Shown one piece after another: positions 2,050-56,667 of a stretch of 64,000 bases of DNA; the first letter of the stretch is position 1; the number at the start of each line of letters is the position of its first letter. The notes beneath the pieces were generated by a model, which ran no database searches, was not told the DNA's origin, and saw nothing but the letters and a program-made list of their open reading frames with translations. A program made the position numbers and the translations under genes. Where the stretch lies: NCBI GenBank assembly GCA_021845805.1, contig JAJZVD010000010.1, positions 1 to 64,000 of the forward strand, in the 5' to 3' direction. Source of the DNA: Pseudomonadota bacterium (GTDB lineage Bacteria > Pseudomonadota > Alphaproteobacteria > Rhodobacterales > Rhodobacteraceae).

Positions 2050-2733
2050 ATGAACGGGCATTCCTTCACCTTGCAGGGCGCGGCGCTGGTGGCGTTGCCC
2101 ACCGGCGCGCTCTGGTGGCCGTCCGAGGCGGCGCTCGCCGTTTCAGACCTGCACCTTGGCCGGTCCGAACGTTATGCCCGCCGGGGCGGTGCCCTGCTGC
2201 CCCCCTATGAAACGCAGGACACGCTGCACCGGCTGGATGCCGACATCCAGGCGACCGGGGCGCGCACGGTGCTGTGCCTTGGCGACAGTTTCGACGATCT
2301 CGCCGCAGCCGATGCCCTGCACGAGACCGCACGCCTCTGGCTGGCCCGGCTGATGGCCGGGCGTCGGTGGCTTTGGGTGGAAGGCAACCACGACCCCGGG
2401 CCGATCGACCTGCCGGGCAGCCATCTTGCGGTTGCGCGGCTAGGGCCGCTCACCTTCCGCCACATTGCCATGCCTGACGAAACTGGCGAGATTTCGGGCC
2501 ATTACCACCCGAAGTTCACGCTCTCCGCGCGGGGGCACAGGGTCACGCGCCCCTGTTTCCTGATCGACTCGGCGCGGGTCATCCTGCCCGCCTATGGCAC
2601 CTATACCGGCGGCCTGTCTTCGGCAGACCCCGCGCTGCTCAGCCTGATCGGCCGGGACGGGATCGCGGTGCTGACCGGCGCGCCTTCCGTCGCCGTGCCC
2701 CTGTCGCCCCAGCGCGCCACGACCGCATCCTGA
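2050..2733 (+). CDS. pdeM: Ligase-associated DNA damage response endonuclease PdeM (metallophosphoesterase)
   Basis: Phosphoesterase motifs SDLHLGRSE, LCLGDSFDD, WVEGNHDPG, ISGHYHPK. Adjacent to the ligase-associated helicase. Confidence 0.88.
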   Translation: MNGHSFTLQGAALVALPTGALWWPSEAALAVSDLHLGRSERYARRGGALLPPYETQDTLHRLDADIQATGARTVLCLGDSFDDLAAADALHETARLWLARLMAGRRWLWVEGNHDPGPIDLPGSHLAVARLGPLTFRHIAMPDETGEISGHYHPKFTLSARGHRVTRPCFLIDSARVILPAYGTYTGGLSSADPALLSLIGRDGIAVLTGAPSVAVPLSPQRATTAS

Positions 2734-3533
2734 TAGCTCCGGCTTACCGGCACCTCGCGCCCGCCGGGCAGCACCAGGAACATCCGGCCCTGACGGCGCT
2801 CCAACTGACGGACGGCCGAATCGGCCACCCAGTGCGACCGGTGGACCTGCATTCCCGCCACGCCATCCAGTTCGGCAATCGCGTCCGCAAAGCGCATCAG
2901 GACGCTGGCCTGCCCCGCGACCGTCGTCACCACGATGTAGTGATCGCGCACCGAGACCGAGATCAGCGGGGCCCGCACCGCAACGGGCAACCGCGCGAAA
3001 AGCCGCGGCGGCGACGGGGGCAAGGGGATGTCGCGCGGCGGCGTCGCCTCTGGCGGAGGCAGTGGCGTGACGCGGATCAGCCGCCAGATCGCCGTTTCGG
3101 TGATCGACGCGAGGAACACGGCGATCCACAGCACGCCGCCCGAAACCGCCACGGCCAGCCCGCGGCGCTCCAGCGCGGCGGTCAGCAGATAGACGATCGG
3201 CGCATAGAGGCTGGCAAACACGGCCGAGGTGATGGCCGCGCGGGGCCAGACGCCAAGCCCGCCCAGGAAGGGCCGCATGAGGCGCCGACACAGCGCCCCA
3301 ACCAGCGGCCCCCCGGCCAGAAGCACGGTCCAGTACCCCAGTCGCAGCGGCGCCGCCATTGTCGCAAATGTGCCAAGCGGGCCGGTGATGCCGACCAGGG
3401 CCGAGACGATCAACCACAGAGAGGTCGCGCGCGGCGAAAAGATCTTCCGCAGTCCTTTTTCAAGTTCCACAAACCGCACTGGCCATACTCTTACTCGCCG
3501 CAGGACATTGCCTGCAGATACCAACGCGGCCAC
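2601..3533 (-). CDS. Membrane protein with C-terminal LytTR DNA-binding domain
   Basis: N-terminal hydrophobic helices, then a LytTR-like segment (LISVSVRDHYIVVTTVAGQASVLMRFADAIAELDGVAGMQVHRSHWVADSAV). GTG start. 3' end overlaps pdeM on the opposite strand. Confidence 0.8.
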   Translation of the reverse strand: MAALVSAGNVLRRVRVWPVRFVELEKGLRKIFSPRATSLWLIVSALVGITGPLGTFATMAAPLRLGYWTVLLAGGPLVGALCRRLMRPFLGGLGVWPRAAITSAVFASLYAPIVYLLTAALERRGLAVAVSGGVLWIAVFLASITETAIWRLIRVTPLPPPEATPPRDIPLPPSPPRLFARLPVAVRAPLISVSVRDHYIVVTTVAGQASVLMRFADAIAELDGVAGMQVHRSHWVADSAVRQLERRQGRMFLVLPGGREVPVSRSYQDAVVARWGDRGTATEGAPVSTAIPSRPIRLSSAGSAEDRPPV

Positions 3534-3573
3534 GCGCGAACAAGCAGAAACTATACTTTAGGACAGGTGTCGA

Positions 3574-4464
3574 TCAGGCCGTCAGGCCCTCTGGTTCGGG
3601 CAGTCCGTTCGCCCGGCAGCAGGCCGTCAGCGTGTTGGCCAGAAGGCAGGCAATCGTCATCGGCCCGACCCCGCCCGGAACCGGCGTAATGGCGCCCGCG
3701 ACCGCCGCCGCCGAGACGAAATCGACATCGCCGACCAGCTTCGTCTTGCCGTCACGCTCGATCCGGTTGATGCCCACGTCGATCACCGTCGCCCCCGGCT
3801 TCACCCAATCGCCCTTCACCATCTCGGGGCGGCCGACTGCGGCCACCAGGATGTCGGCGGTACGGCAGACGGCGGGCAGGTCCTGCGTGCGTGAATGCGC
3901 GATCGTCACCGTGCAGCTGTCGCCCAGCAGCAGTTGCGCCATCGGTTTGCCCACGATGTTCGACCGCCCGACAACCACGGCGGTCTTGCCCGACAGGCTT
4001 CCCAGATGGTCGCGCAGCAGCATCAGGCAGCCCAGCGGGGTGCAGGGCACCATGGCCTTCTGTCCGGTTCCCAGCAGGCCGACGTTCGAAATGTGAAAGC
4101 CGTCGACATCCTTCGCCGGGTCGATCGTGTTGATGACCAGATCCGAATCCAGATGAGGAGGCAGCGGCAACTGCACGAGGATGCCGTGAACCTTCGGATC
4201 GGCATTCAACTGCTTCACCAGCGCGACAAGATCGGCTTCGGATGTCTCGGCTGGCAGCTTATGTTCGAAACTTGCCATGCCCGCTTCGAGCGTCTGCTTG
4301 CCTTTCGACCGCACATAGACCTGGCTCGCGGGGTCTTCGCCCACCAGAACCACCGCAAGGCCGGGCGTGACGCCGTGCCCGGCCTTCAGCCGCGCCACAT
4401 GGTCGGCCACCTGGGCCCGCACCGTTTCGGCAAAGGCCTTTCCGTCGATGATCGTCGCGCTCAT
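3574..4464 (-). CDS. folD: Bifunctional methylenetetrahydrofolate dehydrogenase/methenyltetrahydrofolate cyclohydrolase FolD (canonical copy)
   Basis: [13 protein letters not shown] start; YVRSKGKQ (YxxxK), [41 protein letters not shown] motifs. Confidence 0.95.
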
Positions 4465-4477
4465 CCTTCCCCCCCCC

Positions 4478-5359
4478 TCATTCGGCAGCGGCCGCAAAGG
4501 CGCGCCGGTAATGGTCCATCTGCATCCGGGTGGCCAGCACCGCATTCTTCATCAGCACCGACACCGTGACCGGGCCGACCCCGCCCGGAACCGGCGTGAT
4601 CCAGCCCGCCACCTCGGCGCAGCTTTCGAACTCTGCATCGCCGACAGTCCGCCCATCAACCCGGTTGATGCCGATGTCGATCAATGCCGCGCCGGGCTTC
4701 AGCATCTCGCCCGTCACCAGTCCGGGTTTGCCGACCGCCACGAACACCGCATCGGCCCGGCGCGAATGCATCGCCACCTGCCGCGTCAGGTGGTGGCACA
4801 CGGTCACCGTGGCCCCCAGCCCCATCATCAGGAAGGCGATGGGCTTTCCGACGATCTCGGAATGCCCGATCACCGTCACGTCCAGCCCTTCCACCTTCAG
4901 CGGCAGGCTCTTAAGGATTTCCACCGCCGCCACCGCCGTGCAGGGGCCAAGCGCCAGATCGTTGTAGACGATGTTGCCGATCGAGGCGGGGTGCATCCCC
5001 TCCACGTCCTTCAGCGGGTGCACCGCCCGTTGCAGCGCCTTGACCGGGATATGCGGCGGCAGCGGACGCTGGATGATGATGCCGTTCACCCGCGGGTCGG
5101 CGTTCAACCCGGCCAGCACTCCGGTCAGTTGTTCCAGCGAGATCGCGGCCGGGTAGTTGCGCGCCTCGAACTCCACCCCGGCCGCCGCGGCCTGTCGGCT
5201 CTGGTTGCGAACGTAAAGCTCGGCTGCGGCCACATCGCCCACCGAAACCGAGACCAGCCGCGGGGCCCAGCCCACATCTGCCAGCGCGCGCGCCTCGGCG
5301 GCGGTCTGGGCCAGAAAGCGCCCGGCGATCGCCTTGCCGTCAATGATGGTCGCCGTCAT
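4478..5359 (-). CDS. FolD-family paralog with altered active site (K to Q)
   Basis: [13 protein letters not shown] start; FolD fold motifs [35 protein letters not shown], but YVRNQSRQ replaces YxxxK and KDVEG replaces KDVDG. Confidence 0.93.
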
Positions 5360-5555: not shown

Positions 5556-7232
5556 TCAGAACAGGCCCTCGACAAAGCCCTGGTCGTTCAGGCGGATCAC
5601 CTCGGCCGAGGGCACCTTGGGCAGGCCCGGCATGGTCATGATCTCACCGCAGATCACAACGATGAACCCGGCCCCGGCCGACAGCCGCACCTCGCGCACC
5701 GGCACGGTGTGGCCCGTGGGGGCGCCGCGCAGGTTCGGGTCGGTGGTAAAGCTGTACTGCGTCTTGGCCATGCAGATCGGCAGGTGGCCATAGCCCGCGG
5801 CCTCCCAGGCCTTGAGTTGGTCGCGGATCGACTTGTCGGCGATCACGGCATCGGCGTGGTAGATCCGCTTGGCGATGGTCTCGATCTTCTGGAACAGCGG
5901 CATCTCGTCAGGGTAAAGCGGCGAGAAGTTCGCGGTGCCGCCTTCGGCCAGCGCCACGACCTTGCGCGCCAGATCCTCGATCCCTTCCGATCCCTTGGCC
6001 CAGTGCTTGCACAGGATCGCTTCGGCGCCCTGCTGGGCAACGTAATCCTTCACCGCCTGGATCTCGGCATCCGTGTCGCTGTAGAAGTGGTTGATCGCCA
6101 CCACGACCGGCACGCCAAAGCTCTTCACGTTGGCGATGTGGCGGCCAAGGTTGGGGCAGCCCTTCTTGATCGCCTCGACATTCTCGGCCCCCAGATCCGC
6201 CTTGGCCACGCCGCCGTTCATCTTCATCGCGCGGCAGGTGGCCACGATCACCGCGGCAGAGGGTTGCAGCCCCGCCTTGCGGCACTTGATGTCGAAGAAC
6301 TTCTCGGCGCCCAGGTCGGCCCCGAAGCCCGCCTCGGTCACCACATATTCGCCCAGCCGCAGCGCGGTGTTGGTGGCGATGACAGAGTTGCAGCCATGCG
6401 CGATGTTCGCGAAGGGCCCGCCGTGCACGAAGGCGGGGTTGTTTTCCAGCGTCTGCACCAGGTTCGGCTGCATCGCGTCCTTCAGAAGCACGGTCATCGC
6501 GCCATCGGCCTTGATGTCGCGGCAATAGATCGGCGTCTTGTCGCGGGTATAGGCCACCACGATGTCGCCCAGCCGCTTTTGCAGATCTTCAAGGTCGTTC
6601 GAGAGGCACAGAATCGCCATGACCTCGGAGGCCACGGTGATGTCGAACCCGGTCTGGCGCGGGAAGCCGTTCGACACGCCGCCAAGGCTGACCACGATGT
6701 CGCGCAGCGCGCGGTCGTTCATGTCCATTACCCGGCGCCAGACCACCCGGCGTTCGTCGATGCCCAGTTCGTTGCCCCAGTAGATGTGGTTGTCGATCAT
6801 CGCCGACAGCAGGTTGTGGGCCGAGGTGATCGCGTGGAAGTCGCCGGTGAAGTGGAGGTTCATCTCCTCCATCGGCACCACCTGGGCCATGCCGCCGCCC
6901 GCGGCCCCGCCCTTCATCCCGAAGTTCGGGCCAAGGCTGGCTTCGCGGATGCAGATGACCGCCTTCTTGCCGATCCGGTTCAGCCCGTCGCCCAGACCCA
7001 CCGTCGTCGTCGTCTTGCCTTCGCCTGCGGGTGTCGGGTTGATCGCCGTCACCAGGATCAGCTTGCCCTTGGGCTTGTCGGCCAGCGACTTGATGAAATC
7101 CTGGCTGACCTTGGCCTTGTCATGGCCGTAAGGCAGCAGATGTTCCGTCGGGATGCCAAGCTTGGTGCCGATCTCCTGGATCGGTTTCTTCTTCGCTTCG
7201 CGGGCGATTTCGATATCGGTCTTCACGGCCAT
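5556..7232 (-). CDS. fhs: Formate--tetrahydrofolate ligase
   Basis: [42 protein letters not shown]-loop; [20 protein letters not shown]-like; [14 protein letters not shown]. Confidence 0.97.
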
Positions 7233-54168: not shown

Positions 54169-56667
54169 TCAGCCGTCCTCGCGGATGCGGGCGTTCGTGG
54201 GGTCGAAGGGGCTGTCTTCGGTGACCACGGCATCCCATTCCTGCCGCAGCATCCGCACCTTCAGCTTCGTGCCCGGCGCGGCCAGATCGGGGCTGACATA
54301 GCCCATGCCGATCTGCTTACCGAAGGCCACCGACCAGCCGCCCGACGTCAGTCGGCCGACCTTCACGCCATCCTTCAGAAGCGCCTCCTTGCCCCAGGGA
54401 TCGGTATCGCCCGGCCCGTCGATCAGCACCGTCACGCATTTGGCGCGGATGCCGGTTTCCAGCATCTTCGCCTTGCCGCGGAAGTCCTTGGACAGGTCGA
54501 CAAAGCGGTCGAGCGCGGCTTCCAGCGGGGTCGCGTCGCGGCCAAGCTCGTTGCCGAAGGCGCGGTAGCTCTTTTCCTGCCGCAGCCAGTTCTGCGCCCG
54601 CGCCCCCACGGCCTTCAGCCCGTGCGCCGCGCCCACCGACCAGATCAGATCCCACAGGTAGCGGCCGAACTCGATCGGGTAGTGCAGTTCCCAGCCCAGT
54701 TCGCCCGTGTAGGCCACCCGGATCGCCCGCACCGGGCACATGCCCAGTTCGATGTCGCGATAGCTGAGCCAGGGGAAGCGCTTGTTGCCCAGCACGGTGG
54801 CGGGGTCGCGGTCCTTCACGATGTCCTTCAGGAGCGCGCGGGCGTTCGGCCCTGCCAGCGCATAGACGCCCCACTGGGTGGTGATGTCGTGGATGTCGAT
54901 GTGCCCGCCGCCCTGCGCCATCCAGTCTTCGGCCGATTTCATCAGGAAATCCGCGTCATAGGCAGTCCAGGCGCCGGCCGAGATCAGGTAGTATTCGTTC
55001 TCTTTCAGCCGGACGATGGTGTATTCCGTGCGCGTGGTGCCGTGGTCGGTCAGCGCATAGGTCAGGTTGATCCGGCCGACGTTGGGCAGCTTGTTGCAGG
55101 TGAAATGGTCCAGGAAGGCCGTGGCGCCGGGCCCGCGCACCAGATGCTTGGTGAAGGCCGAGGCGTCGATGATCCCCACCGCGGAGCGGACGGCCTGCGC
55201 CTCGTCCACCGCGTATTGCCACCAGCCGCCGCGGCGGAAGCTGCGGGCCGCGTGGTCGAAATCGGCGGGCGCGTCCTTCGGGCCGTAGTAGTTCGGACGT
55301 TCCCAGCCGTTCACCTGGCCGAACTGCGCGCCCATCTCCTTCTGCCGGTCATAGGCGGGGGCGGTGCGCAGCGGGCGGCAGGCTTCACGCTCTTCATCCG
55401 GGTGGTGCAGGATGAAGACGTGGCTGTAGCATTCCTCGTTCTTGCGCGCGGCATAGTCGGTCGTCATCCAGTTGCCGTAGCGGCGCGGGTCGAGGCTGGC
55501 CATGTCGATCTCGGCCTCGCCCTGGGTCATCAGCTGGGCCAGGTAGTGGCCTGTGCCGCCCGCGGCGGTGATTCCGAAGCTGAAGCCCTCGGCGATCCAC
55601 ATGTTGCGCAGGCCGGGCACCGGGCCCACCAGCGGGTTGCCATCGGGCGTGTAGCAGATCGGGCCGTTGAAATCGTCCTTCAGCCCCACCTGCTCCGACG
55701 ACGGGATGCGGTGGATCATGCTCATGTATTCCGCCTCGATCCGTTCCAGATCGAGCGGGAAGAGATCGGCCCGGAAGCTTTCGGGCACGTCATAAAGGAA
55801 GCGCGCGGGCGCCCCCTGTTCGTAGGGGCCCAGGATCCAGCCGCCGCGCTCTTCGCGCACATACCACTTGGCATCGGCATCGCGCAGCACCGGGTGCTGG
55901 GGGTTCGACTTGCGCCATTCGACCAGCATCGGATCGGGTTCCGTCACGATATACTGATGCTCGACCGGGATCGCGGGGATCTTCACGCCCAGCAGCCGCG
56001 CGGTGCGCTGCGCGTGGTTGCCGGTGGCGGTCACCACATGTTCGGCGTGAACCTCGACCTTTTCGTCGCCCGGCACCAGGTTGCCGCCCTGCTCGACCAT
56101 CTTCGTCAGGCTGACGATCCATTCGCTGCCGGTCCAGCGGTAGGCGTCGACCTGCCAGCGGCGCTCGATCGTGACGCCAAGCTGGCGCGCGCCCTTGGCC
56201 ATCGCCTGGGTCACGTCGGCGGGGTTGATGTAGCCATCCTGCGGATGGAACAGCGCGCCCTTCAGATCGTCCGTCCGCACCAGCGGCCAGCGGTCCTTGA
56301 TCTCTTTCGGCGACAGGAACTCGTGATAGACCCCCGCGGTCTCGGCGACCGAGGAATAGAGCATGTACTCGTCCATCCGCGCGTCGGTCTGGGCCATCCG
56401 CAGGTTGCCCACGACATAGAAGCCCGGGTTCAGCCCCGTCTCGGCCTCGAGCCCCTTGTAGAAATCCACCGAGTACTTGTGGATGTGGGTGGTGGCGTAG
56501 CTCATGTTGAAAAGCGGCAAGAGCCCCGCGGCATGCCAGGTGGAGCCCGAGGTCAGCTCGTCGCGCTCGACAAGCATCGTATCCCACCCCGCCTTGGCAA
56601 GGTGGTAGGCGATCCCGGTGCCCACGGCACCGCCGCCGACGACTAGGGCTTTCACATGGGTCTTCAT
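54169..56667 (-). CDS. FAD-dependent oxidoreductase with GcvT domain (dimethylglycine/sarcosine dehydrogenase-like)
   Basis: KALVVGGGAVGTGIAYHLAKAGWDTMLVERDELTSGSTWHAAGLLP; C-terminal GcvT/folate-binding half (ARALLKDIVKD, YTGELGWELHYPIEFGRYLWDLIW). Confidence 0.93.
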   Translation of the reverse strand: MKTHVKALVVGGGAVGTGIAYHLAKAGWDTMLVERDELTSGSTWHAAGLLPLFNMSYATTHIHKYSVDFYKGLEAETGLNPGFYVVGNLRMAQTDARMDEYMLYSSVAETAGVYHEFLSPKEIKDRWPLVRTDDLKGALFHPQDGYINPADVTQAMAKGARQLGVTIERRWQVDAYRWTGSEWIVSLTKMVEQGGNLVPGDEKVEVHAEHVVTATGNHAQRTARLLGVKIPAIPVEHQYIVTEPDPMLVEWRKSNPQHPVLRDADAKWYVREERGGWILGPYEQGAPARFLYDVPESFRADLFPLDLERIEAEYMSMIHRIPSSEQVGLKDDFNGPICYTPDGNPLVGPVPGLRNMWIAEGFSFGITAAGGTGHYLAQLMTQGEAEIDMASLDPRRYGNWMTTDYAARKNEECYSHVFILHHPDEEREACRPLRTAPAYDRQKEMGAQFGQVNGWERPNYYGPKDAPADFDHAARSFRRGGWWQYAVDEAQAVRSAVGIIDASAFTKHLVRGPGATAFLDHFTCNKLPNVGRINLTYALTDHGTTRTEYTIVRLKENEYYLISAGAWTAYDADFLMKSAEDWMAQGGGHIDIHDITTQWGVYALAGPNARALLKDIVKDRDPATVLGNKRFPWLSYRDIELGMCPVRAIRVAYTGELGWELHYPIEFGRYLWDLIWSVGAAHGLKAVGARAQNWLRQEKSYRAFGNELGRDATPLEAALDRFVDLSKDFRGKAKMLETGIRAKCVTVLIDGPGDTDPWGKEALLKDGVKVGRLTSGGWSVAFGKQIGMGYVSPDLAAPGTKLKVRMLRQEWDAVVTEDSPFDPTNARIREDG

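Follow-up and report, generated by a model that had tools for sequence, protein, structure and literature searches.

Known FolD Enzymes and Separated Pathways

The closest described relatives of the protein studied here, which we refer to as FolD2, are the bifunctional FolD enzymes, which combine a methylene-THF dehydrogenase with a methenyl-THF cyclohydrolase. We take Lys56, Gln100, and Asp125 of the human enzyme to be the counterparts of Lys54, Gln98, and Asp121 of E. coli FolD. In enzymes of this Lys-type, the lysine and the glutamine support both activities, with the lysine acting as acid-base in the cyclohydrolase reaction, and the pterin is bound by the aspartate (PMC3368264, PMC3338484), which has been described as invariant in MTHFDs (PMC6443876). 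The NADP 2'-phosphate site lies at the GRS loop (PMC6443876). The K54N variant of E. coli FolD retained about 19% of the dehydrogenase activity and had no detectable cyclohydrolase activity, and strains carrying it survive, likely through spontaneous hydrolysis of methenyl-THF (PMC5688156). The K53A variant of B. mori MTHFD kept its cyclohydrolase activity, with a kcat/Km of 0.097 versus 0.13 (PMC6443876), and loss of the lysine thus need not abolish this activity.

The dehydrogenase is separate from the cyclohydrolase in the MtdA and Fch/FchA split pathway of methylotrophs, as we propose below for the enzymes of the FolD2 locus. MtdA belongs to a different protein family from FolD, and yeast Mtd1 is a monofunctional NAD-dependent methylene-THF dehydrogenase. 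Extra copies of FolD with a catabolic role are encoded in folD-purU arrangements, as in Paracoccus pAMI5 and in the sox cluster of Pseudomonas, where the gene lies with genes for methyl-group catabolism. Unlike FolD2, these proteins are of the Lys-type (YVNAK, YVRNK; KDVDG) and are paired with PurU rather than with Fhs and a second FolD. In the Gram-positive methylotroph strain 31Y, a second, divergent FolD is clustered with Mch and PurU and stands beside a separate methenyl cyclohydrolase, a system that we compare with FolD2 by its description only (PMC5023230).

The fhs-folD2-folD1 Locus

The window, by which we mean the whole stretch of 64,000 nucleotides that was analyzed, contains 2 folD genes that had been described as lying in tandem with fhs, and this arrangement was confirmed. 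On the minus strand, fhs (5556..7232) is followed after about 197 nt by folD2 (4478..5359), located directly downstream, and then after a gap of only 13 nt by folD1 (3574..4464). The fhs gene codes for a formate-tetrahydrofolate ligase (PF01268, E 2.5e-271; Pfam FTHFS match at 5559..7223, on the same strand as folD2), and its start was set by the conserved N-terminus MAVKTD. The open reading frame of folD2 extends from an ATG at 5359 to a TGA at 4478 and encodes a predicted methylene-THF dehydrogenase of the FolD fold with 293 amino acids. The original prediction had listed the motifs YVRNQ, IQRPLP, KDVEG, and GHSEIVGKP in this copy beside a canonical neighbor, and all were recovered when the minus strand was translated. 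The YxxxK position reads YVRNQ (LYVRNQSRQ), with the glutamine encoded by CAG, and the key residues are Q53, R98, E120, H166, E168, and H190 in the numbering of FolD2 itself. The motifs of FolD1 are those of a canonical bifunctional FolD (VYVRSK, VQLPLP, KDVDG, and GRSNIVGKP). The genome contains exactly these 2 FolD genes, and their products share only about 44% amino acid identity.

The PF02882 domain was identified in FolD2 with 185.8 bits against a cut-off of 27, and PF00763 scored above its cut-off in members of the FolD2 clade. FolD2 fell below the curated cut-offs of all 25 NCBIfam FolD models listed, the best score being 276 bits where 421 were needed, whereas FolD1 passed the PRK14188 model (513.6 > 396 bits). 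The AlphaFold model of FolD2 had a pLDDT of 88.6, was weaker over residues 127 to 133, directly after KDVEG, and aligned to FolD and MTHFD2 structures with a TM-score of about 0.90. The bifunctional enzymes of E. coli (1B0A) and P. aeruginosa (4A5O) have the same fold (TM 0.85 to 0.90) and are 38% to 43% identical to FolD2, with which they share the PF02882 domain and the substrate-site residues Tyr50, Gln98, and the TPVPGGVGP loop, the conservation of which argues against a dead protein. In comparison with these enzymes, FolD2 has Gln for Lys54, Arg for Leu99, and Glu for Asp121, and the site that binds the NADP 2'-phosphate in Lys-type enzymes is changed at 3 places, with His for the arginine of the GRS loop, Glu for Asn169, and His in the region of Ser191. 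The changes at this site suggest the use of NAD+, a soft indication since the NADP-linked E. coli FolD has Ala at the position of the GRS-loop arginine.

Several of these features recur in yeast Mtd1 (PDB 1EDZ), which reads YATWT, KDVEG, and RSEIVG, so that both proteins have lost the lysine, have Glu at the position of Asp125, and contain SEIVG with a Glu in the dinucleotide loop. Mtd1 differs from FolD2 in having Thr rather than Gln at the lysine position, Tyr98 rather than Gln98, and a retained arginine in the loop. Moreover, 1edz was the weakest of the 27 PDB matches to FolD2 (E 4e-8, partial alignment), which makes the two proteins no more than distant kin in sequence, and the likeness to Mtd1 is a case of convergence rather than of membership.

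FolD2 Is a Conserved Subfamily

Orthologs of FolD2 were identified in 17 of 150 genomes from the same family, with sequence identities of 52% to 85% and the motif Y[VI]RNQ in all 17. When 84,980 species genomes were scanned, at least 80 FolD2 loci were obtained, and the taxa among the loci listed included Rhodobacterales, Kiloniellaceae, Inquilinus, Fodinicurvata, Hoeflea, Kiritimatiellales, SAR324, and gammaproteobacterial MAGs. The clade thus covers Alphaproteobacteria, where FolD2 was found in roughly 7% to 11% of the genomes sampled, as well as Kiritimatiellota, SAR324, and some Gammaproteobacteria. Two of the records appear to be mislabelled: CP059262.1, titled Exiguobacterium profundum (MAG), carries a Rhodobacteraceae-type fhs-folD2-folD1 locus, and NZ_VCCH02, titled Mycobacterium sp. 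KBS0706 (L099), is syntenic with Inquilinus; the record for locus L147 has the same title as the latter.

The original prediction had asked whether YxxxQ and KDVEG mark a conserved clade, and the answer is decisively yes. The residues Q54, Q98, R99, E121, and H167 (E. coli numbering) were fixed in 92 distinct FolD2 sequences, all of which thus have Gln in place of the catalytic lysine and Glu in place of Asp121, while 105 distinct Lys-type FolDs had K54, Q or E98, L, F, M, or I99, D121, and R or K167. There were no intermediates among these 92 and 105 sequences, and the same Q, QRP, KD.EG, and GHS were observed at 26 further FolD2 loci. The glutamine is therefore not a chance substitution: all members of this large clade have it, and all Lys-type FolDs have Lys. 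In total, 27 alignment columns showed near-fixed differences between the 2 groups. In a maximum-likelihood tree inferred after removal of the motif columns, a branch supported at 100/100 separated FolD2 from all other sequences. The dN/dS values in comparisons with relatives were 0.10 to 0.21 for folD2 and 0.09 to 0.20 for folD1. Given the fixed residues, the fully supported clade, and the low dN/dS values, the FolD2 signature is old, of single origin in the sample examined, and maintained by purifying selection. A recent tandem duplication was ruled out, since folD2 and folD1 share only about 44% identity and fall into clades with a deep split between them.

Two further leads were discarded. 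Locus L247 had appeared to be a Lys-type member, which was a search artefact, as it reads YVRNQ; and a serine close to the lysine (position 38 in E. coli) had looked diagnostic but is shared by the bifunctional Leishmania enzyme. We found no description of the FolD2 subfamily in the open-licence literature, and its members are annotated by NCBI as bifunctional. In that literature, this widespread bacterial FolD subfamily has so far been without a name.

Gene Neighborhoods

The gene order fhs-folD2-folD1 was observed at 49 of 54 Rhodobacteraceae loci, and fhs-folD1 was found in 17 of 20 relatives that lack FolD2, mostly in the same ftsH region. For this reason, folD2 looks as if it was inserted into a core locus between fhs and folD1. 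The suggestion that the clade is linked to fhs holds by position in the Rhodobacteraceae; however, fhs is present in 142 of 150 genomes of this family, so that the link is one of position without diagnostic value, and the presence of fhs was rejected as a discriminating partner. It was also noted that one genome (G400) contains 2 copies of fhs-folD1-folD2, on contigs C45 and C16 (L263 and L283), each near a tdm or DAO-GcvT-like gene.

At other loci, folD2 often adjoins genes of the N-methylglutamate pathway (mgsABC-gmaS; L089 to L092, L107, L172, L173, and L082), tdm (L084, L107, L166, L169, L172, and L190), a DAO-GcvT dehydrogenase together with a Rieske oxygenase (L106), and FdhF (L261 and L281). 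On plasmid p-SCP4 of Ponticoccus alexandrii (L190), the order fdh-fhs-folD1-folD2-tdm is followed by genes of the serine cycle, and this island at 6519-28828 is possibly a mobile methylotrophy module. In Kiritimatiellota (L100, L108, and L110, of Kiritimatiellales/Pontiellaceae), folD2 is part of a conserved operon located at about 10 to 19.5 kb, which continues with a fusion of MetF-like and pterin-binding domains, the formate channel FocA, fhs, a corrinoid protein, the activator RACo, and DUF1638; the operon apparently serves corrinoid-dependent oxidation of methyl groups to formate. A streamlined alphaproteobacterium of 1.2 Mb (L259 in G220) has retained folD2, with genes of the SoxB-like and GcvT types in its vicinity.

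Outside the Rhodobacteraceae, 12 of 26 folD2 loci had a C1 marker of these kinds within 10 kb. In a separate, class-level sample, genes for fhs, the N-methylglutamate pathway, sox, or formate dehydrogenase were present at 7 of 26 folD2 loci versus none of 14 folD1 loci from the same genomes (one-sided Fisher test, p 0.035), and many rhizobial and rhodospirillal folD2 genes had no C1 genes nearby. The N-methylglutamate pathway was rejected as a general correlate of FolD2, since the occurrence of MgsC in the Rhodobacteraceae (8/17 versus 34/133) was not significantly different (p 0.06). MgsC was present in 5 of 6 members of a plasmid- and tdm-associated FolD2 subclade (p 0.007), a subclade that was chosen after the fact, and was not found in the window genome.

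Partner Enzymes

We sampled 389 alphaproteobacterial genomes, each at least 95% complete, and called FolD2 at a best E-value below 1e-70. Besides the window genome, FolD2 was identified in 27 of the 389 genomes, all 27 of which had a second FolD match, and nearly all of the remaining FolD-bearing genomes had just one FolD. Since FolD1 is near universal, the probability of this pattern by chance is about 0.94^27 = 0.18, and the co-occurrence alone carries little weight. Among genomes outside the Rhodobacteraceae that were reached via their folD2 loci, 23 of 26 had a second FolD above the cut-off; the other 3 were the MAGs G151 (1.9 Mb) and G164, without FchA, and the gammaproteobacterial MAG G165, with FchA. 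The Rhodovibrio MAG G164 thus has FolD2 with neither FolD1 nor FchA, in a genome that is possibly incomplete. Genome G002 was rejected as a FolD2-only genome because it has fragments of FolD1 at 2 contig ends.

Unlike in the MtdA and Fch pathway, no match to FchA (PF04961) was found in the window genome or in the 150 sampled relatives (0/150), and FchA was rejected as the enzyme that provides cyclohydrolase activity beside FolD2 in the former. It was also observed that 4 Rhodobacteraceae genomes (G028, G053, G132, and G148) had no match to FolD (PF00763) or FchA, possibly due to assembly gaps, although G132 carries fhs and has a listed completeness of 100%.

Proposed Function and Alternatives

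The residues and neighborhoods are best explained, with reasonable but limited confidence, by a FolD2 that acts as a dehydrogenase lacking cyclohydrolase activity, is probably linked to NAD+, and oxidizes methylene-THF from methyl catabolism, with hydrolysis left to FolD1, FchA, or spontaneous reaction. FolD2 would oxidize 5,10-methylene-THF to 5,10-methenyl-THF and would be unable to hydrolyze the latter efficiently because the catalytic lysine is replaced by Gln. The neighboring Lys-type FolD1, the proposed source of cyclohydrolase activity, or else FchA or spontaneous hydrolysis would produce 10-formyl-THF, from which Fhs would free formate with ATP. FolD2 may thus be the accessory dehydrogenase of an Fhs-linked methyl oxidation route, serving the dissimilation of methyl groups from dimethylglycine and sarcosine, methylamines, TMAO, and corrinoid methyltransferases, and its NADH-yielding catabolic step would be kept apart from the NADP-linked biosynthetic FolD1. 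We infer the loss of cyclohydrolase activity, the retained dehydrogenase activity, the preference for NAD+, and the catabolic direction. More tentative, if still plausible, is the broader proposal that the entire subfamily consists of dedicated NAD+-linked, cyclohydrolase-free dehydrogenases that converge on yeast Mtd1 and divide the reaction between 2 FolDs, one producing NADH from methyl dissimilation and the other, FolD1, linked to NADP. The original suggestion of a monofunctional dehydrogenase therefore stands as the best reading in view of the E. coli K54 result and the convergence with Mtd1, and is qualified by the activity of the B. mori Lys-to-Ala variant.

That same variant is one reason to consider that FolD2 may still be bifunctional, with its cyclohydrolase function moved to Arg99 and Glu121 and with differences from FolD1 in cofactor, kinetics, or expression. 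The invariant Arg99 adjoins the catalytic Gln98 and might replace the lysine, and MAG G164 shows FolD2 in the absence of FolD1 and FchA. However, cyclohydrolase activity was undetectable in E. coli K54N, the monofunctional Mtd1 combines the same Asp-to-Glu change with loss of the lysine, and a second FolD accompanies FolD2 in 27 of 27 near-complete genomes, all of which makes a bifunctional FolD2 unlikely.

FolD enzymes are generally known to be dimers, and with folD2 and folD1 adjacent at most Rhodobacteraceae loci and FolD2 seldom found alone, a catalytically weak or inactive FolD2 could regulate FolD1 or form a heterodimer with it. We consider this improbable, since the remainder of the dehydrogenase site is conserved and the 2 genes are unlinked in many other genomes. 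An obligate heterodimer is also hard to reconcile with a single FolD2 clade that spans phyla and is partnered by deeply different Lys-type FolDs.

The replacement of the pterin-binding aspartate by Glu in every member, along with the 27 group-specific fixed differences, could instead reflect another substrate, such as a folate that is modified or carries a different glutamylation, a pterin of another kind, or 10-formyl or methenyl forms used reductively. This is less probable still, as the pathway neighbors (fhs, mgs, tdm, DMGDH, and MetF) are all THF-linked and Mtd1, with Glu at the same position, uses ordinary methylene-THF. Finally, the idea that FolD2 is a pseudogene in the making, a redundant tandem duplicate decaying in this strain alone, as the lost lysine and the canonical copy next door might suggest, which the original prediction had given as its own refutation should orthologs carry Lys, is excluded by a glutamine fixed across phyla, dN/dS values of 0.1 to 0.2, and an identity to FolD1 of only about 44%.

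Physiological Context

If FolD2 is indeed a dehydrogenase without cyclohydrolase activity, the subfamily is misannotated as bifunctional, and the burning of methyl groups via folate relies on a dehydrogenase of its own that may produce NADH, with consequences for metabolic models of C1 oxidation. The subfamily would also represent a natural separation of the FolD activities, tested by evolution, that mutagenesis has achieved only crudely. Many of its proteins come from marine bacteria belonging to groups that break down methylated amines and betaines. In R. pomeroyi, a strain lacking both fhs copies failed to grow when glycine betaine was the only source of carbon, and it accumulated glycine betaine during growth on choline (PMC4744692); THF-linked methyl oxidation via Fhs is thus physiologically important in that group. 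In that study, the genes given in the legend to a figure of the fhs neighborhood include folD, tmm/tdm, ftsH, and those of formate dehydrogenase (PMC4744692).

The window also encodes a DAO and GcvT-type oxidoreductase resembling dimethylglycine and sarcosine dehydrogenases (54169..56667, minus strand), which had been put forward as a source of methylene-THF. The protein could supply methylene-THF in this organism, and the suggestion is plausible, but the gene is located about 50 kb from folD2 and its product is only 32% identical to the DAO+GCV_T protein of the dimethylglycine dehydrogenase type that adjoins folD2 in SAR324.

A third, very divergent FolD was observed directly before FchA in Inquilinus (L146, at about 2492-4062) and at L147, in the record titled Mycobacterium sp. 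KBS0706. This protein contains YAAAK, LELPLA (with Glu for Gln98), and GRGRAVGRA, and is another candidate for a split of the FolD reaction.
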